64,000 nt of DNA from Sphingomonas caeni (GTDB lineage Bacteria > Pseudomonadota > Alphaproteobacteria > Sphingomonadales > Sphingomonadaceae): NCBI RefSeq assembly GCF_026013415.1, contig NZ_JAPDOK010000002.1, positions 124,001-188,000 on the forward strand, given 5' to 3'. Shown in pieces: positions 16,469 through 35,095 of this stretch (position 1 is its first letter; each line of letters starts with the position of its first letter). The notes below the pieces were generated by a model, which ran no database searches, had not been told where the DNA came from, and saw nothing but the letters and a program-made list of their open reading frames with translations. The position numbers and the translations under genes are program-made.

Positions 16469-17683
16469 GTGACCAGTCCGGCGGCCCGTCCGCGGCCTCA
16501 GGGGAGGATCGCGCTACCGGGACTCGCAGCCGAACCGCGCTTCGTTTTCGCCGCCGCCCGGATGGTGGGGGAAGGCGGCGACCCCGCCCAGCTGCGCGAG
16601 GCCGCCGGCGGGGTTCGCGACTGGGACATCGCGCTGCGCGGGCTCCGGCGGCACGGCCTGATCGCGCTCGCCGCGCCCCTGCTGAAGCGCGAGCGGGTGA
16701 TCCCAGGCGATTTCCTGGCCGTGCTCGAAGCGCAACAGGGCGACCATGCGGTCGCGGCGCTGATGCGCATCCGCGAGGCCTCCCGGATCGTCCGCGCGCT
16801 CGAGGCGGCGGGCATCCGCTATCTCGTCATCAAGGGGCTGGCACTCTCGATCCAGCTCTATGGCGACCCCGCGCTGCGTGGCGGCCGCGATATCGACATC
16901 TGGATCGAACCTGGTCGGATGGCCGATGCCGAGACGATCCTCGGGCAGCTCGGCTATGTGCTGCCGGTCAACGCGCTGCCCAAGGGGCCGGAGGGGCTGG
17001 CGCCGCCCAAGGAAAGCGGCTGGGTGCATGCCGAGAGCCGGATGCTCGTCGAACTCCACGACCGGCTCACCGACAACCCCGCCCTGCTGCCCTGGGCGTT
17101 CGAGGAAATCTGGGAAGAGCGCGAGACCGTCACGATCGCAGGGCATGCCGTGCCGACGATGCCGCGCAGGCGCCTGCCCCTCTATCTGGCAGTACATGGC
17201 GTGCGGCACGGATGGCAGCGGCTGATGTGGCTCGAGGACCTTGCGGCGGTGCTGGACGCGCGCGACGGGTTCGACCGGGCTATGGCCGATGCCGCGAAGC
17301 AGGGCCTCGAGGGCATGATGCTTCATGTCTGCTGGGCGCTGCATCATTGGCTGGCCCGCCCGGTCCCCGGCGATCTGCTCGCCCGCGCCGCGTGGCGGAT
17401 CGACACGCGCCTGATCAACCTGTTCGCCGCGCGCTTTCATGGCGGACGCTATTGGTACGAGGATGCACCCCGCCATTCGCTCAGCCGCTTCCTCGCCGGC
17501 AGCCTGTGGAGCCGGGGGATCACCTATGCGATGCGGCCATCGGCGCGCTTCTGGCGCCGCCAGCTCGCATGGGACCTCGATTCGCCGCATGACCGCGCGC
17601 TGTTTGGACTGTCCCCGCGCGCCGCATGGCTGTACCCGCTGCTGCGGCCGGCCGGCTGGATCATCCGGCGCTTGCGCCGCTAG
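16469..17683 (+). CDS. Nucleotidyltransferase-family protein (PF14907-like)
   Basis: A 404-residue protein with the nucleotidyltransferase-like core KGLALSIQLYGDPALRGGRDIDIWI at about residues 125-150. The DID pair would bind metal, followed by ILGQLGYVLP. A helical C-terminal half has HGVRHGWQRLMWLEDLAAVL. Members of this family often sit in lasso-peptide and related clusters beside HprK-like kinases, PqqD proteins and asparagine-synthetase homologues, as here. The substrate is unknown. The start is GTG 16469, with GAGGAAGG 8-15 bases upstream. It is the first gene of the plus-strand run leading to the first precursor gene. Confidence 0.8.
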   Translation: MTSPAARPRPQGRIALPGLAAEPRFVFAAARMVGEGGDPAQLREAAGGVRDWDIALRGLRRHGLIALAAPLLKRERVIPGDFLAVLEAQQGDHAVAALMRIREASRIVRALEAAGIRYLVIKGLALSIQLYGDPALRGGRDIDIWIEPGRMADAETILGQLGYVLPVNALPKGPEGLAPPKESGWVHAESRMLVELHDRLTDNPALLPWAFEEIWEERETVTIAGHAVPTMPRRRLPLYLAVHGVRHGWQRLMWLEDLAAVLDARDGFDRAMADAAKQGLEGMMLHVCWALHHWLARPVPGDLLARAAWRIDTRLINLFAARFHGGRYWYEDAPRHSLSRFLAGSLWSRGITYAMRPSARFWRRQLAWDLDSPHDRALFGLSPRAAWLYPLLRPAGWIIRRLRR

Positions 17684-17713
17684 CATGGGACTCCTCCGCT
17701 TGGCCGGTAACAG

Positions 17714-18661
17714 GTGACGCACGATTACAGCTTCGGCGGACTTCGGATCCGGTCCGACATCGCGCTGCCGGGCCTGGCCGAGGCCGGTTGGGGGCAGGGC
17801 GCGGCGCCGGAGCTGCGTCTCACCGCCGAAATCGGCGCGCCGCCGCCGTTCGACCGGGTCTGGTATCAATGGCATCAGGGCTATCGCCTCCAGCTCGGCG
17901 AGCGGGACGGGCGCTGGCTGATCCGCTCGCGCTTCGACGGCAGCTTCCTGATCGATCGCGACGGCAGCGCGCTCCACCTCATGGCGCACACCCTGCCCCC
18001 GGCGCCCGAAGTGATCGAGGTGCTGCTGCGGCGCGTGCTCACCCGCGTGCCGGTGATGCATGGCGCGACGGCGATCCATGCCGCGTCGCTGGCCTGTGAC
18101 GGCGGGAGCGCGCTCCTGATCGGCCGTTCGGGCGCGGGCAAATCGACCCTGTGCGCGTCGCTGGCGCTCCATGGCGGCTGGCAGATTCTGGGCGACGACA
18201 CCGCGCTCCTCTGGACTCCGCAGGCCCCGATGCTCGGCGCGGGCGCGCGCAGCGTCTGCCTGTGGCCCGAATCGCATGACGGGCTGGGCGTGCCTTCGGC
18301 GCGAAGCGAGCCGCTGGCGAGCGCCACCGGCAAGACACGCTCGCCGATCGAGCAAAAGGATCCGCCGCCGCGCGTGCCGCTCAGCGCAGTCTTCTTTCTC
18401 GACCGGTCGGCCGATGCGCCGGCCCCGCGGCTCGAACGGCTGAGCGTGGCCGATGCGGTGAGCCTCGCGGTGCCGCAGATCATCCACTTCAATCCGCATG
18501 GCGAGAGCGCGCAGGAGCGGATCGATGCCGTGCTGGGGATCACTCAGGCGCTGCGCATCCGCCCCGCGTGGCGGCTCATTTATCCGAATTCCTACGCGGC
18601 GCTTCCGCAGGTCGAGGCCTTGCTGCGTCCGTTGCTCGCTTGCGCCGCGCCGCCGGCCTGA
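17714..18661 (+). CDS. HPr kinase-like protein (HprK-like), first copy
   Basis: A 315-residue protein with a Walker A motif GRSGAGKST (Gly137, Lys143) and the typical HprK lead-in MHGATAIHAASLACDG. The following GGWQILGDDTALLW has an Asp pair like the HprK catalytic loop. True HPr kinases act on the HPr phosphocarrier. Divergent members in peptide clusters can phosphorylate a precursor (the paeninodin kinase is the known example). Here the first precursor candidate lies about 1.1 kb downstream, so peptide modification is an inference. GTG 17714 fits the conserved start. The gene follows the nucleotidyltransferase by 30 bases. Confidence 0.85.
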   Translation: MTHDYSFGGLRIRSDIALPGLAEAGWGQGAAPELRLTAEIGAPPPFDRVWYQWHQGYRLQLGERDGRWLIRSRFDGSFLIDRDGSALHLMAHTLPPAPEVIEVLLRRVLTRVPVMHGATAIHAASLACDGGSALLIGRSGAGKSTLCASLALHGGWQILGDDTALLWTPQAPMLGAGARSVCLWPESHDGLGVPSARSEPLASATGKTRSPIEQKDPPPRVPLSAVFFLDRSADAPAPRLERLSVADAVSLAVPQIIHFNPHGESAQERIDAVLGITQALRIRPAWRLIYPNSYAALPQVEALLRPLLACAAPPA

Positions 18662-18673
18662 TATCGAACGCAT

Positions 18674-19738
18674 ATGTCGGACCGGGCCGCACTCCTCGAA
18701 GTGATGCTGCAGCAAGTGGCGGAGGAACCGCGCGCGATGATCGCGATCGCGCGCCAGATGCTAGCCGTGGGGGACCGGGTGCGCGCGCTCGATCTGGCCG
18801 AGCGGGTCTTCGCGATGACCGGCGGCGCGGGCGAGGCCGGGGTCACCGCCGCCGAAATCCTGAGCGACGGCGTCTATTCCTGGCACTTCCTGATCCCGCG
18901 CGACCGGGCGCGCAACGACGCCTATGAAATGGCGCTGCTCCGCGCGATCCGGCCGGGCTGCAAGGTGCTGGAGATCGGGGCCGGCACGGGATTGCTGGCG
19001 ATGATGGCCGCCCGCGCCGGCGCCGAAGTCGTGACCTGCGAGGCCGATCCCGCGATCGCCTCTGCCGCGCGCGATGTCGTCGCCACCAATGGCTATGCGG
19101 ACCGCGTCCGCGTGCTCGGCATGCATTCGACCGCGATCGATCCCGAGCGCGACATGGGCGGCCCGGCGGATATCCTGGTTTCGGAGATCGTCAGCAACGA
19201 CTTGCTGAGCGAGGGCGTGCTGGCCGCGCATGAGGATGCGATGCCGCGGCTGATCAAGCCCGGCGCCGCGATCATCCCCGCGCGCGGCGCGATCCGGGTG
19301 GCGCTGGCGGCGGACACGAAGCGTTCTCCGCGGCTGGACAACGCAAGCGGCTTCGACCTCAGCGCCTTCAATCGCCTCGCCTCGCCCAATGAGATGACGC
19401 GAGTCGGCATGGGGCAGATCGCCCTGCGGAGCGATTCGACCGACCTGTTCGCCTTCGATTTCGCGTCGGGCGGCCCCTGGAAAGCCGAGCGCGCCGAGCA
19501 TCGCTTCGCTTCGCATGGCGGCAGGATCGACGGAATCGTCCAGTGGATCGCGCTCGAAATGGACGAGACCGGCCGCTACGAAAATCGCCCCATGGAGGGC
19601 GCAGCCTCTTGTTGGGGCCCGCTTTTCTGGCGTTTCCCCCGGTCCCTGGAAACCGAACCCGGCGACCCCGTCGATATCGGCGGCGCGCATGAGCGGGACC
19701 GAGTGCGTCTTTGGTGCAACTTATTGTCTACCTTTTGA
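18674..19738 (+). CDS. PRMT-like class I SAM methyltransferase
   Basis: A 354-residue protein. The SAM-binding motif VLEIGAGTGLLAMMAARAG starts at residue 98, followed by CEADP. The segment SEIVSNDLLSEG holds Glu171 and Glu180, nine residues apart, matching the double-E loop that holds the guanidinium in protein arginine methyltransferases. The next segment, AHEDAMPRLIKPGAAIIPARG, also resembles PRMTs. An Arg side chain on a peptide is a plausible substrate: the first precursor candidate, 40 bases downstream, has an Arg in its predicted core. The N-terminal 70 residues are helical and unassigned. The real target is unknown. Confidence 0.85.
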   Translation: MSDRAALLEVMLQQVAEEPRAMIAIARQMLAVGDRVRALDLAERVFAMTGGAGEAGVTAAEILSDGVYSWHFLIPRDRARNDAYEMALLRAIRPGCKVLEIGAGTGLLAMMAARAGAEVVTCEADPAIASAARDVVATNGYADRVRVLGMHSTAIDPERDMGGPADILVSEIVSNDLLSEGVLAAHEDAMPRLIKPGAAIIPARGAIRVALAADTKRSPRLDNASGFDLSAFNRLASPNEMTRVGMGQIALRSDSTDLFAFDFASGGPWKAERAEHRFASHGGRIDGIVQWIALEMDETGRYENRPMEGAASCWGPLFWRFPRSLETEPGDPVDIGGAHERDRVRLWCNLLSTF

Positions 19739-19777: not shown

Positions 19778-19933
19778 ATGGAAAAACTTCCGGAGAATCG
19801 GGAGCCCGATACGACGATCGCTGGCAATGACGACACGTGGGTGAAGCCCGAGCTTGTGTCGTTCCTGCCCGCCAAGGCCGCGGAGGGCATCTCGTATCGG
19901 CCGACCGACGGCATCAGCAATCTGACTCCCTGA
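19778..19933 (+). CDS. Candidate RiPP precursor peptide with lasso-like leader and core
   Basis: A 51-residue ORF with a good ribosome binding site (AGGGG seven bases before ATG 19778) between the methyltransferase and sulfotransferase genes. The hydrophilic N-terminus is followed by WVKPEL at residues 21-26, which fits the YxxPxL leader motif that PqqD-type RRE proteins bind in lasso precursors. After AAE the predicted core GISYRPTDGISNLTP (37-51) starts with Gly and has Asp at position 8. This is the usual set-up for an 8-residue macrolactam ring and a 7-residue tail. Against it, the leader has Ala instead of Thr at -2, and no B2 leader protease is visible nearby. Tyr, Ser, Thr and Arg in the core could accept the sulfo, phospho or methyl groups suggested by neighbouring genes. 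Confidence 0.75.
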   Translation: MEKLPENREPDTTIAGNDDTWVKPELVSFLPAKAAEGISYRPTDGISNLTP

Positions 19934-20016: not shown

Positions 20017-20871
20017 GTGAGCGATTCCGATCCGGCCGGGCCAGCGGCCCGGCCCTATGACCTGACGACGGCAGCGCATGACTATCCCGCCCGGGATGAC
20101 GCGCCCACGCGGACAATCCTGCTCTGCACGCATCCGAGATCGGGCAGCACGCTCCTCGGCGAAGCGCTCTATTTTGCGGGCGGGCTCGGCTGCCCGCTCG
20201 AATATTTCCATGCGGGTTTCAGGCCGTCCTTCGCCCGGCGCTGGGACGCGCCCGATATCGGGCGGCTGAGCGCCGCGGTCCGCCGCCACCGCACCGAACC
20301 CAACGGCACCATGGCGGTGAAGCTGTTCTGGCGCGATATCGAGGAGATTGCGCGCGAGAGCGATCCCGCGCTGGCGGACCTGGCCAATGTGCCGCCCGGC
20401 GATGCGCCCGCCGACTATTACCGCGCGCTGGCGGAGCATGTCGAGCGCCTGTTCCCCAACCCGGTCTTCGTCCATCTCTGGCGCGAAGACCGGCTGCGCC
20501 AGGCCATTTCGGCGGTGGTGGCGGTCGATACCGGCCGCTGGCGCCTGATCCCCGGCGTGGAGGGGCAGGCTCCGATCGGCATGCCCGAATTCGATGTCGA
20601 GCGCATCGAGCGCATCATGAGCTATTCGGATTATTGCCACGGCCATTTCCGCAACCTGTTCGCGGCGATGGGCGTGACCCCGTATCCGATCAGCTACGAG
20701 GCGCTGACGACGGACTATACCGCGAGCGTCGCGGGCGTGCTCGCCTGGCTGGGCAGTACGGCCGAGCCCATGGCGCCGCGGATGCAGCGCCAGGCCGATC
20801 TGGAGAGCGAGGCGCTGGTCCTGCGTTATCTGCGCGAGCACGCTCTGTCTGCCGGCGGACCGGCGCGGTGA
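20017..20871 (+). CDS. Stf0-type sulfotransferase
   Basis: A 284-residue protein with the PAPS 5'-phosphosulfate loop LLCTHPRSGSTLLGEAL at about residue 34 and a second PAPS-contact region, FPNPVFVHLWREDRLRQAIS. Both match the Stf0 family, whose best-known member sulfates trehalose. It would transfer sulfate from PAPS to a hydroxyl. Its position directly after a precursor gene and before a 2OG oxygenase suggests it sulfates a hydroxylated or Tyr/Ser/Thr residue of the peptide, which is an inference. The start is GTG 20017 with a weak ribosome binding site. Its stop overlaps the next gene as GTGA. Confidence 0.9.
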   Translation: MSDSDPAGPAARPYDLTTAAHDYPARDDAPTRTILLCTHPRSGSTLLGEALYFAGGLGCPLEYFHAGFRPSFARRWDAPDIGRLSAAVRRHRTEPNGTMAVKLFWRDIEEIARESDPALADLANVPPGDAPADYYRALAEHVERLFPNPVFVHLWREDRLRQAISAVVAVDTGRWRLIPGVEGQAPIGMPEFDVERIERIMSYSDYCHGHFRNLFAAMGVTPYPISYEALTTDYTASVAGVLAWLGSTAEPMAPRMQRQADLESEALVLRYLREHALSAGGPAR

Positions 20872-21479
20872 CCGAAACGCCCCCGCCGGTGATGCTCCCC
20901 TATCTGCGGATCGCGGGGTTCCTCGACGCGGGCGAGCACGCCGCGCTGCTCGAATGGACGCTTGCCAATGAGGCGCGCTTCGCCCCGGCGCAGCTCGCCG
21001 GCGGGCTTGTCGAACCCAAGGCGCGCATTGCCCTGGCGCTGCGCGATCTCGGGCCGTCGGCCCCGATCCTGACCGAGCGGCTGCGCGCCGCCGCCTCCGA
21101 ATGGAGCGCGGCGCTGCGCACCACGCCGTTCGAGACGAGCGAGGTCGAACTCGAGCTCGCCGCGCACAATGACGGTGCGCATTTCACGCTGCATGCGGAC
21201 ACTTATGCGAGTTCGCAGCCCGCGCGCGGCGACCGCATGCTGAGCGCGGTCTATTATTTCCACCGCCAGCCCCGCGGATTCGAGGGCGGGAGCCTGCGCC
21301 TGCACCGGCTCGGCGCGGCACCGGGCGACCCGGGGCTGGACATCGCCCCGGACGACAACAGCCTGGTCGTGTTCCCGTCCTGGGGCCCGCACGAAGTGCT
21401 GCGGGTCAGCTGCCCCTCGCGCGCCTTTGCCGATTCACGCTTTGCCGTGAATGGCTGGATCTATCGCGCGCGGATTTAG
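20868..21479 (+). CDS. 2-oxoglutarate/Fe(II)-dependent oxygenase (prolyl-4-hydroxylase-like)
   Basis: A 203-residue protein with the iron triad of the double-stranded beta-helix oxygenases: HAD (His109, Asp111) and PHE (His175), plus Arg191 in DSRFAVNGW as the likely 2-oxoglutarate ligand. GGSLRLHRL and LVVFPSWGPHEV match the P4H-like layout. It should hydroxylate an unactivated C-H bond. Translation is coupled to the sulfotransferase by a GTGA overlap, so hydroxylation followed by sulfation of the same product is a reasonable guess. Its stop overlaps the convergent PqqD stop. Confidence 0.85.
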   Translation: MTETPPPVMLPYLRIAGFLDAGEHAALLEWTLANEARFAPAQLAGGLVEPKARIALALRDLGPSAPILTERLRAAASEWSAALRTTPFETSEVELELAAHNDGAHFTLHADTYASSQPARGDRMLSAVYYFHRQPRGFEGGSLRLHRLGAAPGDPGLDIAPDDNSLVVFPSWGPHEVLRVSCPSRAFADSRFAVNGWIYRARI

Positions 21480-21772
21480 ACGGGTTCGATCTCGAGCACG
21501 CCGCGTTCGAGAAGGTCCGCCACGAATTCGGTGACGTCGCTGCGGCACGTCTCGGGATCGACGCGAAAGCCGTTGGCCATGTGATCGCACACCGCGCCGA
21601 GGCTCTGGGGCTCCGCGACGAGCGCCCAGATCTTCGCGCCGGTCCGGTTCAGCTGAAAGAAATAGCCGCTGTCGATGTCGAGCAGGATGGCGTCGTCCGC
21701 GACATCGGCTGCGACCAGCCCGGGCTTGCGCCGAAGCCGCGTCGTCGCGTCGATCGTGGGAACGTCTTTCAT
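21476..21772 (-). CDS. PqqD-family (RRE) protein, first copy
   Basis: A 98-residue protein of the PqqD type, which binds leader peptides and presents precursors to modifying enzymes. Typical features are DDAILLDIDSGYFFQLNRTGAKIWALV and a helical C-terminus with VTEFVADLLERGVLEI. ATG 21772 fits the domain boundary. The frame is open further upstream but runs into the cyclase gene. It is the last gene of a three-gene minus-strand operon (PqqD, asparagine-synthetase-like, PqqD) and ends tail to tail with the oxygenase gene. Confidence 0.88.
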   Translation of the reverse strand: MKDVPTIDATTRLRRKPGLVAADVADDAILLDIDSGYFFQLNRTGAKIWALVAEPQSLGAVCDHMANGFRVDPETCRSDVTEFVADLLERGVLEIEPV

Positions 21773-21797: not shown

Positions 21798-23696
21798 TCA
21801 GAGCCCGAAGGCATGCTCCAGCCACATATCGGTTGCAAGCGCGAACCAGACCGGACCCCAGGCGCTTGCCGGGATATCCCCGGTCGATCCGTTGCGGCGC
21901 CACGCCGCGAAGGGAGCGTTCAGCGCCTCGATACGCTCGGGATCGATCCAGCCGAGCTTCGCGCAGAGCAGATCCTTGGCGGGCCGCTGACGGAGCAATT
22001 CGGTGATCGCATCGACCTGATGCGACACGAAATAGGATTTGGTGCGCCGCTGGCGGATCTTTTCGGGCAGCGTCCCGCGCATCGCCTCGCGCAGCAGATA
22101 TTTGCGGGTGTTGAACTTGCGCAGATGCTCGCCCGAAGCGCCCATGAAGAACCGCGTCAGGTTCAGATCGTGGAACGGGTGGCGGATCTCGACGCCGTGA
22201 TATTCGGTGAAGGCGAGCACCGTATCGACCATCGTGTAGCGCCGCCCGAGCGAATAGACGCAGTAGCGCGATTTCTGATCCATGCCCTTCAGGCCCTTGC
22301 GGGCGATCTGCTGACGCCAGCGCTCCTCGAGCCCGATCCGCTCCATCCAGTCGGCCCGGATCCAGTCGGGCTTGTCGAGGCGGAAATCGAGATGCGGCCG
22401 CAGCTGCGCCTCGCGGTGCCGCGGGCTGATCAGCGGCATCCCGGCGGTGTAGAGCGTGCGCCGCGCCTGCACATACCAGGGGGAATTGGGCCATTGCTCG
22501 GCGCCATGGCGGAACATGGCGCGCCACTGGCCGCGCAGGAGCTGATCGGACCAATGCGCGTAATAGCCGTTGAGCCAGTCGTCACCGCCTTCGCCGGTCA
22601 GGAGCACGCGCCGCCCGTCGCCCTGAAGCGCGGCACACACGCCCCCCATCGTGTCGAGGACATTGGGGCGCACCGGCAGCTGATAGGAATCGGCGCACCA
22701 TTGCCGCGACCAATCGGGATCGAAGGGTTTCGAGCCGACCGCCTCGGCGGTAATGCCGAGATGATGCTCGACCTCGCTGCTCCACTCGGTTTCGTCGTGC
22801 GGCTCGCCGGGAAAGCGCGCCGTGATCGCGCCGATCTGACGGTCGAGCTTGCCGGCGCGGAACAACTGCGTCGCGCGGCACACCACCGACGAGGAATCGA
22901 GCCCGCCCGACAATTGCGCGGTCACCGGACCGGCGCTGCGGGTGGTGGCGGCCAGCGATTGATCGAACAGATGGTTGAACCGCTCGATATGATAGTCGAG
23001 CGACCGGCTGGAGAGATCCTCGAACGGCCCGCCATGCCAGGCCCAGCTGGAGACGCGTCCGTCCTCGAAGCGGATCGATCCGCCCTGGGGCACGCGTTCG
23101 ATTCCGCCCCAGATCGTGTCGGTCTCCGACACGAACCGCGCCGAAAGAAACTCGCCGATCGCGCCTTCGTTGAGCTTGCGCTCGAACCCCAGGCCCAGGA
23201 TCAGCGCACGCGGCTCGGTCGCGAAGCCGAAGGTGCGCCCGTCGAACGCCCAGAGCAGGGGCCGCCACCCCATCGGCGAGCGGAACAGCTCGAGCCGGCG
23301 CGCACGGGGCTGCCACACCGCGATGGCATAGTCGCCGGTCAGCTGATGGACGAAGTCCCTGCCCTCGCGCTCGAACAGCGCCAGCGCGATCACGCCGTCG
23401 GGAGCGCCGGCCAGCTTCTTCCCGGCGGGCCCCAGCCGGTCGAGCAAATAGCCGCGATTGTCGAGCCGCCCGTCGAGCAGCAAGGCAATCCCCGATTCGC
23501 CGCCGATAAAGGGCTGGGTCTCGCCGCGCGCTTCGGGCGTCGTCGCATGCGCGAAACGCACCAGCCCGGCGGCATCGTCATGCCAGTGCGACACGCCGTC
23601 AAAGCCGCGCCGCATGGTCGAGCCCGCCACGCGGTCGAGCACCTCGGCGGACATGGCGCGCCCGTCGGCGAACAACGCGCCCGCGATCCCGCTCAT
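21798..23696 (-). CDS. Asparagine-synthetase-like protein (lasso cyclase-like), first copy
   Basis: A 632-residue AsnB homologue. The N-terminus reads MSGIAGALF where true AsnB has MCGI, so the nucleophilic Cys of the glutaminase domain is Ser and glutamine hydrolysis should be lost. The synthetase domain keeps the PP-loop SGGLDSSS (from Ser263), LLTGEGGDDWLNGY, and KYLLREAMRGTLPEKIRQRRTK. AMP activation of an acidic side chain without ammonia production is what lasso-peptide cyclases do. GGAGGGG five bases before ATG 23696 supports the start. With PqqD genes on both sides and a lasso-like precursor 1.9 kb away, a macrolactam-forming role is the best guess. Confidence 0.88.
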   Translation of the reverse strand: MSGIAGALFADGRAMSAEVLDRVAGSTMRRGFDGVSHWHDDAAGLVRFAHATTPEARGETQPFIGGESGIALLLDGRLDNRGYLLDRLGPAGKKLAGAPDGVIALALFEREGRDFVHQLTGDYAIAVWQPRARRLELFRSPMGWRPLLWAFDGRTFGFATEPRALILGLGFERKLNEGAIGEFLSARFVSETDTIWGGIERVPQGGSIRFEDGRVSSWAWHGGPFEDLSSRSLDYHIERFNHLFDQSLAATTRSAGPVTAQLSGGLDSSSVVCRATQLFRAGKLDRQIGAITARFPGEPHDETEWSSEVEHHLGITAEAVGSKPFDPDWSRQWCADSYQLPVRPNVLDTMGGVCAALQGDGRRVLLTGEGGDDWLNGYYAHWSDQLLRGQWRAMFRHGAEQWPNSPWYVQARRTLYTAGMPLISPRHREAQLRPHLDFRLDKPDWIRADWMERIGLEERWRQQIARKGLKGMDQKSRYCVYSLGRRYTMVDTVLAFTEYHGVEIRHPFHDLNLTRFFMGASGEHLRKFNTRKYLLREAMRGTLPEKIRQRRTKSYFVSHQVDAITELLRQRPAKDLLCAKLGWIDPERIEALNAPFAAWRRNGSTGDIPASAWGPVWFALATDMWLEHAFGL

Positions 23697-23984: not shown

Positions 23985-24102
23985 CGCTTTGCGCTGACAT
24001 GATTTGCGGGCTCCGCGCAAGAGGCCGGGCCGGGCGCTTCGGGTAGACAGCGGCGGCATGAGCGTGCGAGTGAGGATAACTCGTCAACCGGAGGTGGCTA
24101 GC

Positions 24103-27209: not shown

Positions 27210-29317
27210 CGGAGCAGGATGGTGCGCGGTTGGGCCATCATCTCGACTTTCTGGTTCCCGACGACTGCGAGGTGCTGATCGACGCGAAGGCGCGGGTGCG
27301 CCTTGCCGCCGCGGCGATGACGATGCCCGCCATCCCGCGGGTCGCGGTCGAAATCCGGCTGGCGGCCGGCCAATCGCAGGTCGATCTCCAGCAATGTTTC
27401 CTGCGCAGCGCGGGCGATTTTCCGCGGCTGGCTGCCTATTGCCAGGCCAAGGCGGCCGAACGGCCCGACTGGGTGCCGGTAGCGCACTATTGCCGCGATC
27501 TGGCCGATCCCGGGCAGGCGTTTGGCGAGAGCGTCACCGAACTCTATCTCGAACACGACCTGCTCGAGACGGGCGAGACGCCATCCGCGCCGGCGCTGTT
27601 CGTGGACCTGCCGGGCGATCCCGCATCGGCGCGCGCGCTTGCTCTGGAAACGGCGCGACGGTTGCAGGGCGCGGCGTTGCCCGGAACCGGCACCGCGATC
27701 GGCCGGATCTTCGATGCCTGCCGCGGCGACGCCTTTGTCTCGCATATCGGCTGCATGACCGGCCGGACCGTCCCCGGTGTGCGGATCAACGTGAAGGGCA
27801 TTCGCCCCGCAGCGCTCGAGCCTTTCCTCAAGGAGTGCGGCTGGCCCGGCGATAGCCGCCGCGGCTCTGCCCTGTTCGATTTTGCTGTCGGGGGATGCGA
27901 CCGGGTCACCCTCGCCTTCGATATCGTCGGCGCGCTGCTGCCCAATTTCGGCGTCGAGTGCTTCTTCGACCACCAGCCGGCCGAGGATCCGGCCTGGCGC
28001 CGCATGTTGAGGCTGCTCACCGCCGATGGCCTGTGCGCGGCGGACAAGGGCGATGCCTTTCAGACAATTCCGGCGACGATCACCCCCGCAGGATGGACCG
28101 GAGCCTGGCCCACGGACATGGCGGTCGGCGCGATGCTGGGCAGCGACCGCGAATTCACCAGCTATGCCCGGCGCGCGGTGCATCTCAAGATCGTCGACGG
28201 CATGGGCGGCAGCCGGAGCGCCAAGGCCTATTATGGCGCGGGCTACCTCACCATCGCGCCGCTGACCGATCCCGAGCACCGCCGCTGGCGCCCCACATTG
28301 GCCGCCCCCGCACCACGCCGCTCGGTCCGCGCCGACCATGTGGCGCTGGCCGATCCCGCCGACCGGGCGATCGCGCACGGCGTCGAGTATCTGCTCCAGA
28401 CCCAGCGCCAATCCGGCCTGTGGCGCGAATTCCCGGTGCCTTCGGGGATCAGCGACAATTGGGTGAGCGGCTTCATCGGGACCCAGCTCGTCGCAACCGG
28501 CGACCCGCGCGGCCGCGCCGCCGCCGAGGAAGCGCTCGACCGCTTGCTGACGCGCCAGCGGCCCGATTCGGGATGGGCCTATAATGAGGACCATCCGACC
28601 GACAGCGACAGCACCGCCTGGATATTGCGGCTGATGCGCAGCCTGGGGCGGCTTGAAGAACCCGCCGCCCGGCGCGCCATCGCGTTCGTGCGGGCGCATG
28701 TCCAACCCTCGGGAGGGATCGTCTCGTTCCGCGAGCGCCAGCCGGTGGCGGACGTCGCGAAGCTTCCCGACGAGTCCTCGCTCGCGGGATGGATGGCGGT
28801 GCATGACTGCGTGACCGCAGGCGCGGCGCCGTTCGGGGGGCCGGCCGTGGCGGACTATCTGCTGGCCAATGAGGCGGATGGCGCATGGCGCGCCTATTGG
28901 TGGGTGCATGACGCCTTCGCCTCCGCGCTCGCGGTCGAGGCGCTGCTGGCGTCGGACCATGCGGCCAAGCCCGAATGGCGCGCGCGGGTGCAGCGGCGCG
29001 CGACAGGCTGGATCGAGGAGGCGCTGGCGAGCGAGCGATGCGAATATTTCGACCTCGCCTTCGCGGTCCGTGCGCTGATCGGCACCGATCCCGAGGCGGC
29101 GAAAGACGCGCTGGTCGCCGCCGCCGCCGCGCGCATGCTCGCCGATCAGGCCGAGGACGGCAGCTGGCGCCCGAGCGCACGGATGCGGGTTCCCTGGCAT
29201 GCGGCGATGCCGGACAGCATGACGGTGGAAACCGTCGCCTATGATCGCCAGGCCGGTTTCACCACCGCGGCGGTGATCGCGACACTGGCGATGCTGCGCG
29301 ACGGGCGAATGCCATGA
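27185..29317 (+). CDS. Terpene-cyclase-like (alpha/alpha toroid) protein with a novel N-terminal domain
   Basis: A protein of about 710 residues in two parts. Residues of about 1-370 form a domain I do not recognise (FLVPDDCEVLIDAKARVRLA, GVRINVKGIRP, ALLPNFGVECFFDHQ). The rest resembles prenyltransferase/squalene-cyclase repeats: LLQTQRQSGLWREFPV, LLTRQRPDSGWAYNED and TDSDSTAWILRLM. The last contains D473-S-D475-S, matching the class II cyclase motif DxDDTA with the final Asp replaced by Ser but the usual acid Asp kept. A long helical barrel follows. The start is ATG 27185 or TTG 27176, and neither has an ideal ribosome binding site. It is first in an operon with Nif11, PqqD and a second AsnB-like gene, so it probably acts on a peptide or its lipid/isoprenoid partner. 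Confidence 0.7.
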   Translation: MGERSPGVTEQDGARLGHHLDFLVPDDCEVLIDAKARVRLAAAAMTMPAIPRVAVEIRLAAGQSQVDLQQCFLRSAGDFPRLAAYCQAKAAERPDWVPVAHYCRDLADPGQAFGESVTELYLEHDLLETGETPSAPALFVDLPGDPASARALALETARRLQGAALPGTGTAIGRIFDACRGDAFVSHIGCMTGRTVPGVRINVKGIRPAALEPFLKECGWPGDSRRGSALFDFAVGGCDRVTLAFDIVGALLPNFGVECFFDHQPAEDPAWRRMLRLLTADGLCAADKGDAFQTIPATITPAGWTGAWPTDMAVGAMLGSDREFTSYARRAVHLKIVDGMGGSRSAKAYYGAGYLTIAPLTDPEHRRWRPTLAAPAPRRSVRADHVALADPADRAIAHGVEYLLQTQRQSGLWREFPVPSGISDNWVSGFIGTQLVATGDPRGRAAAEEALDRLLTRQRPDSGWAYNEDHPTDSDSTAWILRLMRSLGRLEEPAARRAIAFVRAHVQPSGGIVSFRERQPVADVAKLPDESSLAGWMAVHDCVTAGAAPFGGPAVADYLLANEADGAWRAYWWVHDAFASALAVEALLASDHAAKPEWRARVQRRATGWIEEALASERCEYFDLAFAVRALIGTDPEAAKDALVAAAAARMLADQAEDGSWRPSARMRVPWHAAMPDSMTVETVAYDRQAGFTTAAVIATLAMLRDGRMP

Positions 29318-29556
29318 CGGTCGCCGCCGCATTGACCTTTATCCGGCGGGCCCGGGCCGATCCGGCGATTCGCGCGGCGCTCGAATGTGCATCGGAAGCC
29401 GCGGCGACGGGCGCGATCTGCGCGATCGGCGCCGATCATGGCCTCGCCTTTTCCGAATCCGATTTCGACCGCGCCTTTGCGATCGAATGGACGGCGCGAT
29501 GGGCGCATTTCGGCAATCCGGACACGACAATCGACAAGGGAGGGAAGGGCAAGTGA
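29314..29556 (+). CDS. Nif11-domain small protein
   Basis: An 80-residue protein whose first 60 residues match the Nif11 fold pattern: ALTFIRRARADPAIRAALE, then AICAIGADHGLAFSESDFDRA. Nif11 domains serve as leaders of several RiPP precursors but also occur as free helper proteins. After the domain comes only TARWAHFGNPDTTIDKGGKGK, with no Cys or glycine-rich core, so this copy looks more like a helper or a degenerate precursor than a typical substrate. It overlaps the gene before it as ATGA and the PqqD gene after it as GTGA. Confidence 0.8.
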   Translation: MTVAAALTFIRRARADPAIRAALECASEAAATGAICAIGADHGLAFSESDFDRAFAIEWTARWAHFGNPDTTIDKGGKGK

Positions 29557-29849
29557 GTGAGGGTGTTGCGAACGGGGCGGGCGACGAGCGGCTGAGCGCC
29601 AGCGAGCAGGTGATGGCGATCAAGGTCGAGGAGGAGGTGATCGCCTTCCACATGGATCATGGCCGCTATTTCGGGCTGCGCGGCGCGGCGGGCCTGGTGT
29701 GGGAGCGGATCCAGGCCGGCACCGACCGCGAAAGCGCGATCGCGGCGGAGATCCTCGCCAGCCATCGCGGCGATCCCGATCATATCCGCGCCGATGTGGC
29801 AAAGGCGATCGCCGAGATGAAGCGGCTGGGCATCCTGATCGGCGGCTAG
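29553..29849 (+). CDS. PqqD-family (RRE) protein, third copy
   Basis: A 98-residue PqqD-like protein: VMAIKVEEEVIAFHMDHGRYFGLRG, then GLVWERIQAGT and a helical C-terminus ending MKRLGILIGG. The start is GTG 29553, overlapping the Nif11 stop as GTGA, with GGGAGG upstream. A longer open frame upstream is out of phase with Nif11 and not likely to be used. It lies three bases before the second AsnB-like gene, the classic arrangement of recognition protein plus cyclase. Confidence 0.87.
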   Translation: MSEGVANGAGDERLSASEQVMAIKVEEEVIAFHMDHGRYFGLRGAAGLVWERIQAGTDRESAIAAEILASHRGDPDHIRADVAKAIAEMKRLGILIGG

Positions 29850-29852: not shown

Positions 29853-31640
29853 ATGACCGTCTTCGCCTTTGCGCTGGCGCTCGAGCCCGGGAGGCCGCTC
29901 GACCGGTTCGACACGCATCCGCTGCGGCCCGGGCTGGCCGAGCCCGGCACGCTCCATATGCGCAGCGGCCTGGGCTGGCACGCGGCCTGGCGCAATGCGC
30001 CAACGGGGCTGCAGACCGACTTCGCGGCGGAGGCCGACGATCTGGTCGCGATCACGGCCGGACGGTTCGAGCGGCGCGGTGCGCTGTGCCTTGACCTCGG
30101 CGTGGCGCCGGGCGCGCGCGATGCGGTGCTGCTGATCGCCGCCTATCGCCGCTGGGGCGAGGCGATGCTCGATCGGCTGCGCGGCGACTTCGCGTTCCTG
30201 CTCTGGGACGCACGCCAGCGCCGGCTGATCGCCGCGCGCGACCAGCTCGGCTGCTCGCCTCTCTTCTACCGCGAGCATGACGGCGTGCTGCTGGTGGGCA
30301 CCGCATTGGACGCACTCCGCGATCACGATCGCGCCGGATTGAGCCTCGACGAGAACTTCATCGGCGATCTGCTGCTGCAGGGCATGCCGGCCCAGCATGA
30401 GACCAGCGTCTATGCCGAGATCCGGCGCGTGCCGCCCGCGCGTGCCCTGCGCTTTGCCGGCGGACAGGTGGAGACGCGGCGCTACTGGTCGTTTCCCGCT
30501 TATGGCGATCCGCTGATCCTGACGTCGCGCGCGGACTATGCCGAGCGTTTCCATGCGGGGCTGCGCGACGCCGTTGCCGAGCGGCTGCCCGAGACCGGGC
30601 CGGTCGTGATCCTGATGAGCGGCGGGCTCGATTCGACCGCGGTCGCCGCGGTTGCCGCCGAGATATTGGGGCCCGAGGGAGCGCGGGCGCGGATCAAGGC
30701 CTATACCACCGTGTTTCCCGGCTTTCCCGAACAGGAAGGGCATTATGCTGCGCTCGCGGCCCAGCATCTGGGCATCGAGCATCATCTGGTGGAAGCCGGC
30801 GACTATCTGGGGGCGCCGCTTCCCGATCACGACGCCTGGCTTCGCCCCGAGCCCGGCGCGATCGCCGGATTGCTCGCCGAATCGCGCGCCGCCGAGGCTG
30901 CCGCGGCGGGAGGCGGCGTATTGCTCAACGGGCTCGGCGCCGATGTCTATCTCCACCCGCCCGGTGCCAGCTTCTGGCATATCGCGGCGCGCGGCGCCCG
31001 CGCGCTACCCGATACGACGCGGCATGTTCGGCTGTTCGGCCGCATGCCGGACCTGCGCGTGCGGGCGTCGCTCGGCCGGTTGCGGCGCCGGCTGGCCGCG
31101 AAGCCCGCGCCTAAGCTCCCGGCCTGGATCGATGCCGGGTTCGCGGCGCACTCGGGACTGATCGCGCGCACCGCCGCACGTTATGCCGAAAATCGCGAGG
31201 CCGGGGCCGCCCGGCTGACCTCACCCTATTGGGCGGCGCTGCTGACCATGGGGCATCCAGCGACGACCGGACGTTCGCTGCATCCCGCCCACCCGCTGGC
31301 CAGCCTGCCGCTGATCGAGCTTGCGATGCGCCTGCCGCGGGCTGCGGTGACCGACAAGGCGATCCTGCGCTGGGCGATGCGCGGGCGCCTGCCCGACGCG
31401 ATCGTCGATCGCGCCAAGACGCCGCTGGGGAGCATCGGTACCGACCTGATCGAGCGCGACCCGCGCATCGCCGCGCGCACGCGATCCCTGATCGAGGGAC
31501 AGGCGGGCGCGCTCTCGCGCTTCGTCGATCCCGCGCTGGCGATCGATGCGCTCGGCCATGCGCAGGGAAGGGACCGGGTGGCGCTGATGAACCTCGAACT
31601 CCTGGCGGCGTGGTTCGCGAGCGGCGCTGTCCAGTCCTGA
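29853..31640 (+). CDS. Asparagine-synthetase-like protein (lasso cyclase-like), second copy
   Basis: A 595-residue AsnB homologue. The N-terminus MTVFAFALALEPG has no Cys2, so there is no glutaminase nucleophile, although the degenerate glutaminase domain remains (GDFAFLLWDARQRRLIAARD, LGCSPLFYREHDG). The PP-loop is SGGLDSTAV (from Ser256). LNGLGADVYLHPP stands where AsnB has a GEGGDE-type loop, so this nucleotide-site loop is altered (GLGAD). Downstream are SLHPAHPLASLPLIELAMRLP and RWAMRGRLPDAIVDRAKTP. It follows PqqD by three bases and precedes a small precursor-like gene by 85 bases. The chemistry could be amide or other adenylation-driven bond formation. Confidence 0.86.
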   Translation: MTVFAFALALEPGRPLDRFDTHPLRPGLAEPGTLHMRSGLGWHAAWRNAPTGLQTDFAAEADDLVAITAGRFERRGALCLDLGVAPGARDAVLLIAAYRRWGEAMLDRLRGDFAFLLWDARQRRLIAARDQLGCSPLFYREHDGVLLVGTALDALRDHDRAGLSLDENFIGDLLLQGMPAQHETSVYAEIRRVPPARALRFAGGQVETRRYWSFPAYGDPLILTSRADYAERFHAGLRDAVAERLPETGPVVILMSGGLDSTAVAAVAAEILGPEGARARIKAYTTVFPGFPEQEGHYAALAAQHLGIEHHLVEAGDYLGAPLPDHDAWLRPEPGAIAGLLAESRAAEAAAAGGGVLLNGLGADVYLHPPGASFWHIAARGARALPDTTRHVRLFGRMPDLRVRASLGRLRRRLAAKPAPKLPAWIDAGFAAHSGLIARTAARYAENREAGAARLTSPYWAALLTMGHPATTGRSLHPAHPLASLPLIELAMRLPRAAVTDKAILRWAMRGRLPDAIVDRAKTPLGSIGTDLIERDPRIAARTRSLIEGQAGALSRFVDPALAIDALGHAQGRDRVALMNLELLAAWFASGAVQS

Positions 31641-31725: not shown

Positions 31726-31881
31726 ATGCGCGACGAGCAGATGATTTCGTTCGAGATGCCGGAATATAAAGACGCCGAGATCGTGGATTATGGCAGCGCG
31801 AACGATATCGTGCGCACGTCTCCGGACGATCATGGCCTGGGGACCGACGGCGCTTCCTGCTGCAGCTGGTACCTTTCCTGA
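31726..31881 (+). CDS. Candidate RiPP precursor peptide with C-terminal Cys-Cys core
   Basis: A 51-residue ORF directly after the second AsnB-like gene, with GGGGAGG eight bases before ATG 31726. The leader contains EYKDAEIVDYGSANDIVRT (13-31), whose Tyr, Ile and Gly spacing fits the lasso-type motif YxxPxLxxxG with Ala in place of Pro. The tail is rich in Gly and small residues and ends GTDGASCCSWYLS. No Gly/Ala/Ser/Cys start residue with an Asp/Glu at 7-9 is apparent, so a standard lasso fold is unlikely. The two adjacent Cys, Ser and aromatic residues may be the modified positions. The sequence before it is AT-rich (31680-31695), unlike the rest of the window, suggesting its own promoter. 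Confidence 0.75.
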   Translation: MRDEQMISFEMPEYKDAEIVDYGSANDIVRTSPDDHGLGTDGASCCSWYLS

Positions 31882-31899: not shown

Positions 31900-33129
31900 C
31901 TAGCGGCCGGTCATCACAAAACCGATCGCGCCGATCAGCGCGAAGATCGCCATTCCGGCGATCGCGAACACGAATGTGCCGCGCCTCGTCAGGATCGCAT
32001 CCGGGCGGCGGAAGGGCATTTCGATATAGCGCCACGAGAGGATGCCGGCCGCGACCGCGACCGCGAACAGGATGACGCGCAGCCAGATTGGGAAGTCCTG
32101 TCCCCATAGCCGCTGCGCGACGATGATGATCGGCCAATGCCACAGATAGACCGAATAGCTGGCGATTCCCGCAAAGCGCCATGGCTGGCGGCTGAGCAGC
32201 CTGCCCGACCAGGTCTGCGACCCTTCGTTCGCCAGCAGCAGCAGCGCGGTTCCCAGGCAGATCGGGATGACGTTGACGGCATGAAAGCTGGTGATGATCG
32301 GCAGCCTGAGCGAGGTCAGCACGATCGCGGCGCATCCGATCGCGCCGAGCAATTCGCGCACCGGCCGCGTGAAGCTGAGCCGTCCGCCATGGAGCGCGAG
32401 CGCGCAGCCGAGGAAAATCTCCCAGACGCGGGAGGTGGTGAGGAAATAGGCGCTGACCGAGCGGGTGCTGGTGAGCATCGAGACCGCGAGCAGCAGCGCG
32501 GTGAATCCCAGCATCCCCCAGAAGGACGGGCCGCGGCCGCGCGCGAGCAAGGCGACCAGCAGCGGCGGATAGAGGAGATAATATTGCTCCTCGACACCCA
32601 GCGACCAGGTGTGCGGCAGGGGTGTTTGCGCGAATTCGCCGATCGGATGCAGCCCGATCAGCAGATTGTTGGCGTAGAGCGCGGTCGCGGCGAGCGAAGC
32701 GGCGGAGGCGTGCCGGGCACTTTCGGGAATCACCCAGAAGCCGAGCACCGCCGATACCGCGAGCAGCGCGAACAGCGCGGGGAAGAGCCGGCGGATCCGC
32801 CGCTCATAATAGCGCGCATAACTGAACTTGCCCGCGGCACGGTCGCTCAGGATCACATGGGTGATCAGATAGCCCGAGACGACGAAGAACAGGTCGAGCG
32901 CGGCGGCAGCGCCGGGAAAGATATCGAGCCAGCCAAGATGCGCGGCGAGCACCACCAGCGCCATCACGCCGCGCAGCCCGTCGAGATCGGGGCGGTATTC
33001 GAGCGTGCGCCCGCTGTCCGCGAGCGGATCGCGCGGTGCGGCCGGTGATGCAAAAAGGTCTGCCAATGTCTGGGGCGTATCGAATGCGGCCGGAGGAAGC
33101 GCCGATTTCAAGCAAGTTGGAAGCGGCAT
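31900..33129 (-). CDS. Acyltransferase-3 family membrane protein (OafA-like), second copy
   Basis: A 409-residue membrane protein. It has the OafA-type opening YRPDLDGLRGVMALVVLAAH with the catalytic-type His, DLFFVVSGYLI, YYERRIRRLFPAL, TWSLGVEEQYYLLYP and YSVYLWHWPIII. The family core starts about 45 residues in. No start has a good ribosome binding site. ATG 33129 overlaps the divergent P450 gene by over 60 bases, and TTG 33066 would just abut it, so the true start is unsettled. It probably acylates a surface sugar or a secondary metabolite. Its stop is 18 bases from the precursor gene end. Confidence 0.88.
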   Translation of the reverse strand: MPLPTCLKSALPPAAFDTPQTLADLFASPAAPRDPLADSGRTLEYRPDLDGLRGVMALVVLAAHLGWLDIFPGAAAALDLFFVVSGYLITHVILSDRAAGKFSYARYYERRIRRLFPALFALLAVSAVLGFWVIPESARHASAASLAATALYANNLLIGLHPIGEFAQTPLPHTWSLGVEEQYYLLYPPLLVALLARGRGPSFWGMLGFTALLLAVSMLTSTRSVSAYFLTTSRVWEIFLGCALALHGGRLSFTRPVRELLGAIGCAAIVLTSLRLPIITSFHAVNVIPICLGTALLLLANEGSQTWSGRLLSRQPWRFAGIASYSVYLWHWPIIIVAQRLWGQDFPIWLRVILFAVAVAAGILSWRYIEMPFRRPDAILTRRGTFVFAIAGMAIFALIGAIGFVMTGR

Positions 33130-34193
33130 TGCAAGCGGCGCTCGCCGCGGGCGAGATCGCCTATGACCGGGAAGCAGATGGCTGGCGGGTTACCGGCTTT
33201 CGCATCGCGCGCGCGATCCTGGGCGATGATGCTTTCCGCAAGCCCGATTTCGCGCCGCTCGCACTCGACGCGCTGCCGCCGGCGCTTGCCGCCGCGGTGC
33301 GCCGGGGCGAGACGCTGCAGCGGCTCTGGACGGTGCCGCCCCCCGAAGCCGCCTGGCCGGTGCGCCGCACCTTCGCCGCGGCCTTCGCGCCGCGCCGGAT
33401 CGGCTATCTGCGCGAGGCGATGGGCGCCGAGGCCGAGCGGCTGCTCGCCGGCGCGGAAGGCGACGGCTTCGATCTCGACCGCGATTTCGCGCAGCCCCTC
33501 ACCGAATGGGCGATCGCGCGGCTCTATGGCATCGATCCCGCGGAGATCGGCCGCGTCGCGCAGATGAGCGGCCCGCTCGCCACCGCCTTTTCATTCGGCG
33601 TGCGCGACCGGATCGGCGCAGCGATGGCGATGGCGACGATCGAGCCGGTCCTGACCGCGCTGCTGCGCGCACCCTCGCGCGGCGGCGCGGCGGCACTGGA
33701 GACGGTCCAGGCGGCGATGGCGTCGGGCGAGATCAGCGCGGACGAAGCGCTTTCCTGGATGGCGCTGTCGCTGCTCGGCGGGCTGCAGACCAACCGGCGC
33801 TTCCTGGTCCAGTGGCTTTCCCGGCCCGCGCCGCCGGAGGGCGAAACCGGAAATAGCGACGCCAGCTGGCTCCAGACCGCCGCCGAGCTTGCGCGGCGCA
33901 ACGTCGTCGTCGACAGCATCGCGCGCCAGAGCCGCTGCCCGCTGGCGCTCGACGCGGCGGCGATCCCGGCGGGCGCGACCTTCTTGCTCGATCTCGAGCG
34001 GATCAATCACGATCCGGCGCGCGCGGAGGGCAGCCATCTCTCGTTCGGGCACGGCGCGCATATGTGCATCGGCCGGCATTTGGCGATGATGCAGATCGAA
34101 AGCGCGGGCCGCGTGGTTGCGGGCTGGCCGGCGGCACGGCGCGCGTCGCTCGCGCTGGCCGCCGGTCCGATGAGCGGAGCGGCACCCCATTGA
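33066..34193 (+). CDS. Cytochrome P450, short form
   Basis: About 375 residues. The heme-thiolate motif is LSFGHGAHMCIGRHLA with the ligand Cys334. The K-helix ExxR is ELARR. The I-helix region reads GGLQTNRRF, where the usual acid before Thr is Gln. IPAGATFLLDLERINHDP fits the segment before the heme loop. At about 375 residues it is slightly shorter than typical soluble bacterial P450s. ATG 33066 has AAAAAGG eight bases upstream; ATG 33084 is the alternative. It shares one base with the next gene (TGATG), so it is coupled to the HprK-like protein and may oxidise the peptide product. No ferredoxin gene is nearby. Confidence 0.88.
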   Translation: MSGAYRMRPEEAPISSKLEAALQAALAAGEIAYDREADGWRVTGFRIARAILGDDAFRKPDFAPLALDALPPALAAAVRRGETLQRLWTVPPPEAAWPVRRTFAAAFAPRRIGYLREAMGAEAERLLAGAEGDGFDLDRDFAQPLTEWAIARLYGIDPAEIGRVAQMSGPLATAFSFGVRDRIGAAMAMATIEPVLTALLRAPSRGGAAALETVQAAMASGEISADEALSWMALSLLGGLQTNRRFLVQWLSRPAPPEGETGNSDASWLQTAAELARRNVVVDSIARQSRCPLALDAAAIPAGATFLLDLERINHDPARAEGSHLSFGHGAHMCIGRHLAMMQIESAGRVVAGWPAARRASLALAAGPMSGAAPH

Positions 34194-35095
34194 TGCTGCG
34201 CCAGCTCGACGGATTGACGATCGCACGCGCGGAGGGCCGCTGGCCCGACGAGGCGGCCGCGGACATCCACTGGAAGCACAGCATTGTCGATGCGCTGCCG
34301 GGCGCCGACGGGTCGCATGCGGCCAGCGAAGACCGGGCCGACGGCCGCTGGACGGTCCATGTTTATGCCGAGGCCGGGTGCACGCATCAGCGCTTCGCGA
34401 TCTCGCCGGACGGCGCCTGCGTCGAATCGCAGGGTATCGCGCGCACCCGGGACGACGAGCTGTGGGGACTGATGTCCGAGCCGGTGATGCGCACCCTCTT
34501 CCGGCTGCGCGGCATCCCTTCCTTTCACGCCGCCTCGCTCAGCCGCGGCGGACGCACCATCCTGATCGCGGCCGAGAAGGGCGGGGGCAAATCGACACTG
34601 TCGGCGGCGCTGGTGCGCGGCGGCTGGACCCTGCTGAGCGACGATCTCACCCGGGTCGAGCGGATCGGCGGGGAATGGCGCGCCCATGCGGGCTATAACC
34701 AGCTCAAGCTGCACGCGGATTCGAAGGCGGCGCTGGGCATCGGCGCTGCGGAGCTCGGCTGGCGCTGGCACGACGCCGATCCTCGCCTGCCGGGGAACAA
34801 GCTGGTGTGGAAGCTGCCCGAGGCGCCGGACCTCGCACCGCGGCGCATCGACGAAATCTTCGTGCTCCAACGCCGCGATCCCCTGCTGACCGCGCCGCGC
34901 CAGCATCGCGTGCCCGCGGTCCACGCGATGCTGGCGCTCCAGCCGCATCTCAGCTGCGATCCCTTCCTGGCCGAGACCGCACCCCGCCGCGGGGATATGG
35001 CGGCGCTGCTGTCGCTCTCGGCAGGCGTGGCGTGCACCGCGCTGACGATGCCGGACGATCTGCAGCGCCTCGCCGAATTCGCCGGCGCGATCTGA
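34193..35095 (+). CDS. HPr kinase-like protein (HprK-like), second copy
   Basis: A 300-residue protein with the HprK-like lead RGIPSFHAASLSRGGRTILI and a Walker A motif AEKGGGKST (Lys133) in which the first Gly is Ala. GGWTLLSDDLTRVER supplies an Asp pair. The nucleotide site therefore looks mostly intact but not canonical. It follows the P450 with a TGATG overlap and ends the peptide locus. Like the first copy, it could phosphorylate a precursor, but it could also have another ligand. The frame is open well upstream in the P450, but ATG 34193 fits the operon. Confidence 0.82.
   Translation: MLRQLDGLTIARAEGRWPDEAAADIHWKHSIVDALPGADGSHAASEDRADGRWTVHVYAEAGCTHQRFAISPDGACVESQGIARTRDDELWGLMSEPVMRTLFRLRGIPSFHAASLSRGGRTILIAAEKGGGKSTLSAALVRGGWTLLSDDLTRVERIGGEWRAHAGYNQLKLHADSKAALGIGAAELGWRWHDADPRLPGNKLVWKLPEAPDLAPRRIDEIFVLQRRDPLLTAPRQHRVPAVHAMLALQPHLSCDPFLAETAPRRGDMAALLSLSAGVACTALTMPDDLQRLAEFAGAI

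Follow-up and report, generated by a model that had tools for sequence, protein, structure and literature searches.

Which peptides would be made by a locus that holds two AsnB-type cyclases and many tailoring enzymes, and what would cut off their leaders when no leader protease lies among the genes? The question arises at positions 16469-35095 of a 64,000-nucleotide stretch of the Sphingomonas caeni genome (contig NZ_JAPDOK010000002.1; hereafter the window). A preliminary description had seen here a locus for ribosomally synthesized and post-translationally modified peptides (RiPPs) with unusually rich tailoring, perhaps two adjacent clusters sharing enzymes. Genes were called by codon usage and by Pfam and NCBIfam profile searches, which confirmed the rich tailoring. 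We regard it as likely that the locus consists of two adjacent, separately inherited clusters of the lasso-peptide type, A (16.5-25.9 kb) and B (27.2-35.1 kb), each with its own precursor; this estimate covers the reading as a whole, that is, two lasso-type clusters, their tailoring and leader cleavage in trans. All reactions, cleavage sites, threading and the action of a B2 leader protease in trans were predicted from sequence.

Two probable lasso-type clusters and their relatives

Cluster A, flanked on the left by purine-catabolism-like genes, runs on the forward strand from a nucleotidyltransferase-like gene (NTP5) through HprK1, PRMT, the precursor gene preA1, Stf0 and a 2-oxoglutarate (2OG) oxygenase, continues on the reverse strand with PqqD1, AsnB1 and PqqD2, and ends with a forward radical S-adenosylmethionine (SAM) gene. 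A reverse-strand acyltransferase gene separates it from the fusion, Nif11, PqqD3, AsnB2 and preA2 genes, which overlap or are tightly spaced on the forward strand. A second reverse-strand acyltransferase gene is followed by P450 and HprK2, both forward, and by a sensor-kinase-like gene on the right flank. Each tailoring family listed in the preliminary description was recovered by profile or sequence match; the two precursors, and the division of the genes into two clusters that each have relatives of their own, go beyond it.

AsnB1 (21798-23696, reverse; NF033535 lasso cyclase E = 3e-66) and AsnB2 (29853-31640, forward; E = 2e-53) are predicted lasso macrolactam synthetases, both scoring below the family cut-off. 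As had been described, they lack the glutaminase Cys, their second residue being another one (MSGI... and MTVF...), and both contain the ATP motif SGGLDS. The three PqqD proteins, RiPP recognition elements, were likewise found again: PqqD1, of the B1 type (21476-21772, reverse; PF05402 E = 5e-18; NF033536 lasso PqqD 3e-16, below cut-off), PqqD2, which occurs in about half of the related loci (23727-23984, reverse; PF05402 E = 3e-12), and PqqD3 (29553-29849, forward; PF05402 E = 9e-11).

The precursor preA1 (19778-19933, forward) has a leader ending in WVKPELVSFLPAKAAE and, after a predicted cleavage site, the core GISYRPTDGISNLTP, with a predicted ring from Gly1 to Asp8. It is conserved beside the same enzymes elsewhere. 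Synonymous change exceeded non-synonymous change over its leader and core in 11 of 11 comparisons (pS 0.41-0.89, pN 0.06-0.29), which marks the open reading frame (ORF) as a protein-coding gene under purifying selection and bears out the small ORFs of the preliminary description as real. The C-terminal ends of its relatives include GISYRPTDGLSNLTP, GVSYRPTDGMSNLTP, GISYRPNDGISNLT, GISYRPSDGLSNLTA and GISYRIGDGISNLT. Other A-type cores differ in sequence (AATINPGDALSSNS, GNGGAGFDFASEASN, GLGGAGIDFASEQS and GIGGGVSDGSGGNVS), and their clusters keep a leader of the WVKPE type, an Asp as residue 8 or 9, and a Ser or Thr at the end or close to it. Asp occupies ring position 8 or 9, as predicted, in each of the 23 A-type loci for which a core was identified.

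The leader WVKPEL and Asp8 of preA1, both conserved in related loci, agree with the lasso pattern (Y/W)xxP and with Asp or Glu at core positions 7-9. The second precursor, preA2 (31726-31881, forward; ...EIVDYGSANDIVRT...SPDDHGLGTDGASCCSWYLS), was assigned from its place beside AsnB2, the likeness of its leader and a C-terminal Tyr/Ser ending as in five related loci. Its leader, YKDAEI, has no Pro, and its ring Asp is ambiguous, so that the leader and ring features of the class are present in A and less clear in B. Taken together, the precursors, the PqqD and AsnB proteins, and an in-cluster B2 protease in five related loci (below) indicate that A is of the lasso type; we infer the same peptide class for the locus, with threading predicted.

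Of the 295 genomes of the genus, 15, including the source genome, have AsnB1 relatives (E < 1e-60), as do two from other genera (17 in total). For A, 24 related loci were read (loci are numbered L, genomes G and contigs C), among them L017, a source-genome cluster with an AsnB2-like cyclase. The order NTP5-HprK-PRMT-precursor-Stf0-2OG-PqqD-AsnB-PqqD is nearly complete in L068-L071 and rearranged in L024, L072 and L073. The B set (precursor, AsnB, HprK, P450, fusion, PqqD and usually a Nif11-like protein) recurs in G295, G404, G459 and two metagenome-assembled genomes (MAGs), one from Sphingomonadales and one from Burkholderiales. Scattered, unlinked homologues would have spoken against the preliminary description; instead, the A genes are linked in 24 loci and the B genes in five, and the small ORFs are conserved. 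The adjacency of two clusters thus stood, while the sharing of enzymes between them is unsupported apart from the B2 gene, because the relatives of each have a PqqD, an AsnB and usually a kinase of their own.

In L077, neither a precursor nor tailoring genes could be recognised close to the AsnB1-PqqD1 pair; the AsnB1-type gene of L027 has one in-frame TGA within the match, possibly marking a decaying cluster, and its precursor ORF is intact.

Tailoring enzymes and predicted target residues

The PRMT gene (18674-19738, forward) encodes a PRMT7-like arginine methyltransferase (best solved relative PRMT7, phmmer E = 1.9e-24) whose SAM motif and double-E loop, SE-x8-E with eight residues between the Glu, are invariant in 11 sequences. 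Arg lies in the predicted ring in 11 of 11 loci with PRMT and in 0 of 12 without it, counts that are not phylogenetically independent, so that common descent inflates the p value and the main informative contrast is L074. The core of L074, GISFKPND, is the sole GIS-type core with F4K5 in place of Y4R5; the locus keeps the 2OG oxygenase, radical SAM protein, PqqD1 and AsnB1 and has neither PRMT nor Stf0. A wider search of the family, covering 398 genomes, gave no further A clusters and hence no additional independent contrasts for the two sites.

The Stf0-type sulfotransferase (20017-20871, forward; PF09037 E = 5e-28) has a conserved 3'-phosphoadenosine-5'-phosphosulfate (PAPS) motif. In the GIS group, Tyr4 is a more likely sulfation site than Ser3, since duplicated precursors in L068 and L076 keep Tyr4 but have Ala or Phe in place of Ser3. 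Where the ring has no Tyr, Ser or Thr (L025, L027, L082 and L083), the cluster has no Stf0. We therefore predict from these patterns that PRMT methylates Arg5 and that the target of Stf0 is a hydroxyl group in the ring, most likely that of Tyr4.

HprK1 (17714-18661, forward; TIGR04352, below cut-off) and HprK2 (34190-35095, forward; PF07475/TIGR04352, below cut-off) are the two HprK-like kinases previously noted; both have the His...GKS/T...Asp-Asp residues, and the His-Lys-Asp-Asp set of HprK-type lasso kinases is present and, in HprK1, conserved. Lasso kinases phosphorylate a C-terminal Ser (PMC9266682). By likeness to PadeK and SyanK (PMC9266682), HprK1 is predicted to act on core position 14 (Ser/Thr; Thr14 in preA1). 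preA2 ends in Ser, the predicted target of HprK2, and preA1 does not (...T14-P15); an HprK-like gene is present in five of five related B loci. NTP5 (16469-17683, start possibly 16562, forward; NTP_transf_5, PF14907 E = 2e-46) is linked in many A-type loci.

No residue could be assigned to the Fe/2OG oxygenase (20868-21479, forward; 2OG-FeII_Oxy_3 PF13640 E = 1e-16; HxD conserved): it accompanies Pro6 inside the GIS group, yet some clusters that lack the oxygenase have Pro6 too. The radical SAM protein (24058-25926, start possibly 24103, forward) belongs to a family of B12-dependent RiPP C-methyltransferases (TIGR03975, 522.6 bits against a cut-off of 282) and has the motif C-x7-C-x2-C; clear homologues are linked to A-type clusters in six other loci, with a weak piece in one more.

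In cluster B, the gene at 27176-29317 (start possibly 27230, forward) encodes a squalene-cyclase-like fusion of an ABBA prenyltransferase and a class II terpene cyclase, identified from its AlphaFold model (pLDDT, a per-residue confidence, 80.9 for the whole protein) and fold matches. The N-terminal part (residues 1-360) consists of repeated strand-strand-helix-helix units and matches MpnD with Z 19.0 over 305 residues, a value from the whole-protein model only; Foldseek matches for this part include PagF among the ABBA prenyltransferases. The C-terminal domain (389-711) matches MstE with Z 40.2 over 321 residues and 28% identity, and the position mutated in MstE D109N corresponds in the alignment to D478, the second Asp of the fusion's D476-S-D478-S motif, so the catalytic Asp is kept. 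All six B precursors terminate in Tyr, zero or one residue, and Ser. The other five B cores contain no Trp; Tyr, as the sole aromatic residue common to all six, is the likely prenylation site, and the fusion enzyme likely prenylates this conserved tail Tyr. The cytochrome P450 (33060-34193, start possibly 33036 or 33129, forward; PF00067 E = 1e-7) has P450-like counterparts in five of five related B loci.

The Nif11-like protein (29314-29556, forward; TIGR03798 E = 7e-5, 20.9 bits, below cut-off) is a conserved partner without a core. Small Nif11-like proteins adjoin the fusion gene in L016, L119, L120 and L121, with unconserved tails. We considered a role as second precursor and rejected it, since the relatives extend only a little past the Nif11-like domain, their short tails being unrelated, and there is no conserved core. 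The string PDTTI is found both in this protein and in preA1, probably by chance; a common DNA origin was rejected because blastn gave no similarity.

The two halves of the fusion also occur apart. In Mycobacterium and Gemmatimonadaceae MAGs (L042, L044 and L045), the cyclase half occurs by itself close to TP_methylase-like (borosin-like) genes. In clusters that encode a class II lanthipeptide synthetase (L122:9739-11861 and L123:8982-11088), the prenyltransferase-like half and the cyclase half each have a gene of their own; L123 has two precursor-like ORFs.

A candidate leader protease encoded elsewhere

The absence of a B2 protease and an ATP-binding cassette (ABC) exporter from the locus, as stated in the preliminary description, was upheld: a PF13471 search of the whole genome gave two matches only, both outside the window, and no ABC ATPase with Walker and signature motifs was found between 15 and 36 kb. 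Exporters were also not found near the sphingomonad A and B clusters, the motif match in L120 looking like an importer ATPase. The Burkholderiales B cluster L043 differs in this respect: a full ABC exporter (L043:168-1925) directly precedes and overlaps its NTP5 gene. B2 genes are present inside five related A loci (L024, L025, L026, L084 and L085).

One of the two matches in the source genome is an orphan B2 gene at C12:438942-439367 (L013:8940-9368), about 250 kb from the clusters. It scores 82.4 bits with the lasso B2 model NF033537 (cut-off 33 bits) and keeps the Cys and His. With this gene present, the lack of an in-cluster B2 is probably not a lack of protease. At 8654-8988 of L014 (C19:40000-56000), there is a canonical-looking, benenodin-like lasso cluster with its own B2 and two precursors, MSEDTRKLIDLGAATTQTKG... 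and MDREPNETIDLIDLGVASVETQG.... Four lasso-type clusters of the source genome have no B2: A and B of the window, L012 and L017. A second orphan B2 was found in another species of the genus (L125:7195-7665).

The distribution of B2 genes was consistent with a role in trans. At least one B2 gene is present in all 15 AsnB1 genomes of the genus, and the orphan B2 subfamily (110 bits or more) is present in 13 of these 15, as compared with about 20 of 280 others (Fisher 3e-12). In some of the 13 (G208 and G322), the subfamily member sits in an L017-like cluster. The orphan adjoins a phospholipase-D-like gene in five genomes and a peptidase-like gene in six others; these are housekeeping positions, and the recurrence of the same neighbours across genomes indicates fixed chromosomal positions, unlike those of a cluster gene. 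In a B2 tree, the orphans group with the B2 of L017-like kinase/sulfotransferase clusters (support 0.92), near those of L084 and L085 and apart from canonical B2. The orphan B2, probably acting in trans for the clusters, is the best explanation of the missing protease.

L017 itself (L017:9272-13428) encodes a sulfotransferase of the Sulfotransfer_1 type, not Stf0, with HprK and PqqD; its relatives L161-L163 have a B2 beside PqqD, sulfotransferase and HprK.

These predictions can be assembled into a pathway. In A, PqqD would bind the W-V-K-P-E leader of preA1 and present the core to the tailoring enzymes. HprK1, with NTP5, would modify the conserved Ser/Thr14, PRMT would methylate Arg5 and Stf0 would sulfate the ring hydroxyl, most likely that of Tyr4; the 2OG enzyme would oxidise and the B12-radical SAM protein C-methylate the core at positions not assigned to residues. 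A B2 made elsewhere, for which the orphan is the best candidate, would then cut off the leader, and AsnB1 would link Gly1 to Asp8. In B, PqqD3 and AsnB2 would act likewise on preA2, the fusion would prenylate the tail Tyr and cyclise the prenyl chain, P450 would oxidise the product and HprK2 would phosphorylate the C-terminal Ser. The full combination is put forward tentatively: one lasso peptide whose ring Arg is methylated, whose ring Tyr is sulfated and whose tail is phosphorylated or phosphoglycosylated, beside a second, terpenoid one with a cyclised prenyl-Tyr, the leaders of both being cut off by a single orphan protease on which several dispersed B2-less clusters of the genome depend.

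Alternative readings and known systems

Several observations weigh against two lasso-type clusters cut in trans. All the chemistry is predicted from sequence. The preA1 leader has Ala at -2, where Thr is usual though not universal; Thr is found there in the relatives L012, L025 and L027, and a lasso exception with Ile at -2 has been published (PMC10368454). The cyclases score 224 (AsnB1) and 182 (AsnB2) bits, the NF033535 cut-off being 525, and the ring Asp of preA2 hinges on the assumed cleavage, becoming Asp9 if Thr is left at -2 (cleavage between VRTS and PDDHGLGTD). preA1 and some relatives end one residue past position 14, whereas the kinases characterised so far act on a Ser at the C-terminus. 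Stf0 also occurs in clusters without a core Tyr (L012, L079 and L081), where its target must be another residue, perhaps Thr3. On the protease side, G404 and G438, two of the 15 AsnB1 genomes, have no orphan-subfamily member but do have other B2 genes; in two of the 13 (G303 and G376), the B2 counted is an in-cluster gene; and the B2 tree is short, with G011_d and G212_b apparently misframed, which weakens its fine detail.

The products could instead be macrolactams made by AsnB, unthreaded or with part of the leader kept, for which B2 would be unnecessary. The missing -2 Thr, the cyclase scores far under the cut-off and the absence of B2 from the cluster and most related loci would suit such products. 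Yet five related loci do have an in-cluster B2, two of them (L024 and L026) with near-identical GISYR cores, the orphan B2 is associated with AsnB1 genomes, and ring closure via the core N-terminus requires that this be freed; we consider such macrolactams improbable. More doubtful still is that the clusters are remnants which have lost protease and exporter and make no product, as might be thought from the B2 present in some relatives and from a radical SAM gene that is apparently broken or reduced in L068 and L070. All window genes are open with intact catalytic residues, the precursor is under purifying selection, and most relatives are intact though also without an in-cluster B2. The adjacency of the sets and their mixed strands might also suggest one composite pathway acting on a single peptide, the least probable of the three explanations: each set has its own precursor and is found without the other in other genomes, and G404 has both types at separate positions. 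We thus retain two lasso-type clusters with leader cleavage in trans.

The clusters of paeninodin (PadeK), SyanK of Sphingobium yanoikuyae and pseudomycoidin (PsmK/PsmN) resemble these in having PqqD, an AsnB-type cyclase and a nucleotidyltransferase-type protein (PMC8498205, PMC9266682), as well as an HprK-like kinase with His-Lys-Asp-Asp and Ser/Thr at or near the C-terminus. Unlike here, kinase lasso clusters as reviewed have the B protease in the cluster, and none is described with PRMT, a site-assigned Stf0, radical SAM or a prenyltransferase-cyclase. Sulfotransferase and nucleotidyltransferase genes have been noted beside Firmicutes lasso genes (PMC8498205). Benenodin-type clusters of related bacteria, such as that of sphingocin (PMC11006600), have A, B and C genes and no D exporter; they differ from the window clusters in their in-cluster B2, another leader and no tailoring genes, and one is seemingly present in the source genome (L014). 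Unclustered lanthipeptide proteases (PMC8960859) and the remote citrulassin peptidylarginine deiminase (PMC9266682) are also maturation enzymes encoded away from their clusters; in the present case it would be the lasso leader protease that is encoded remotely, possibly as an enzyme common to several clusters of one genome.

NctPC, a bifunctional ABBA prenyltransferase-MstE-like cyclase, geranylgeranylates a RiPP Trp and cyclises the chain (PMC13290415). Compared by description, not by sequence, it has the same two-domain architecture and folds as the fusion; NctPC modifies Trp, whereas the fusion sits in lasso-type clusters with Tyr as the common aromatic residue. Eukaryotic PRMT7 shares with our PRMT the sequence similarity and double-E loop given above; the latter differs in being a bacterial RiPP-cluster gene with a predicted short-peptide substrate and SCW as its THW-like motif.

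The modifications recorded for lasso peptides in a review of interlocked peptides from June 2026 are C-terminal methylation, hydroxylation, epimerisation, citrulline, cross-links, chlorination, prenylation, glycosylation, phosphorylation, acetylation, Tyr acylation, aspartimide and a second isopeptide bond (PMC13352647). Sulfation, arginine methylation and prenyl cyclisation are not in that list, although earlier mention elsewhere is possible. The architecture of the fusion is not in itself new, since NctPC already has it. As far as the literature covered shows, much of it reviews, this kind of system is known; what is new is the combination, together with the residue-level predictions and the detachment of the protease. 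If true, arginine methylation, sulfation and a cyclised terpenoid would be added to lasso peptides, the first two tied to single residues by natural variants (R5/K5 and Y4/F4). Cluster-based mining can miss such lassos, because the leader protease is encoded elsewhere and is probably shared; since one bacterium has four lasso-type clusters without B2 and a single orphan B2 that matches them, the shared-protease question is directly testable there.

Two membrane acyltransferase genes of uncertain membership lie between the clusters (25936-27039, reverse; PF01757 E = 1.5e-16; family members near some related loci) and within B (31900-33129, reverse; PF01757 E = 3e-29). Such PF01757 proteins recur beside or inside A-type clusters (also in L024, L026 and L074), and peptide acylation is possible.

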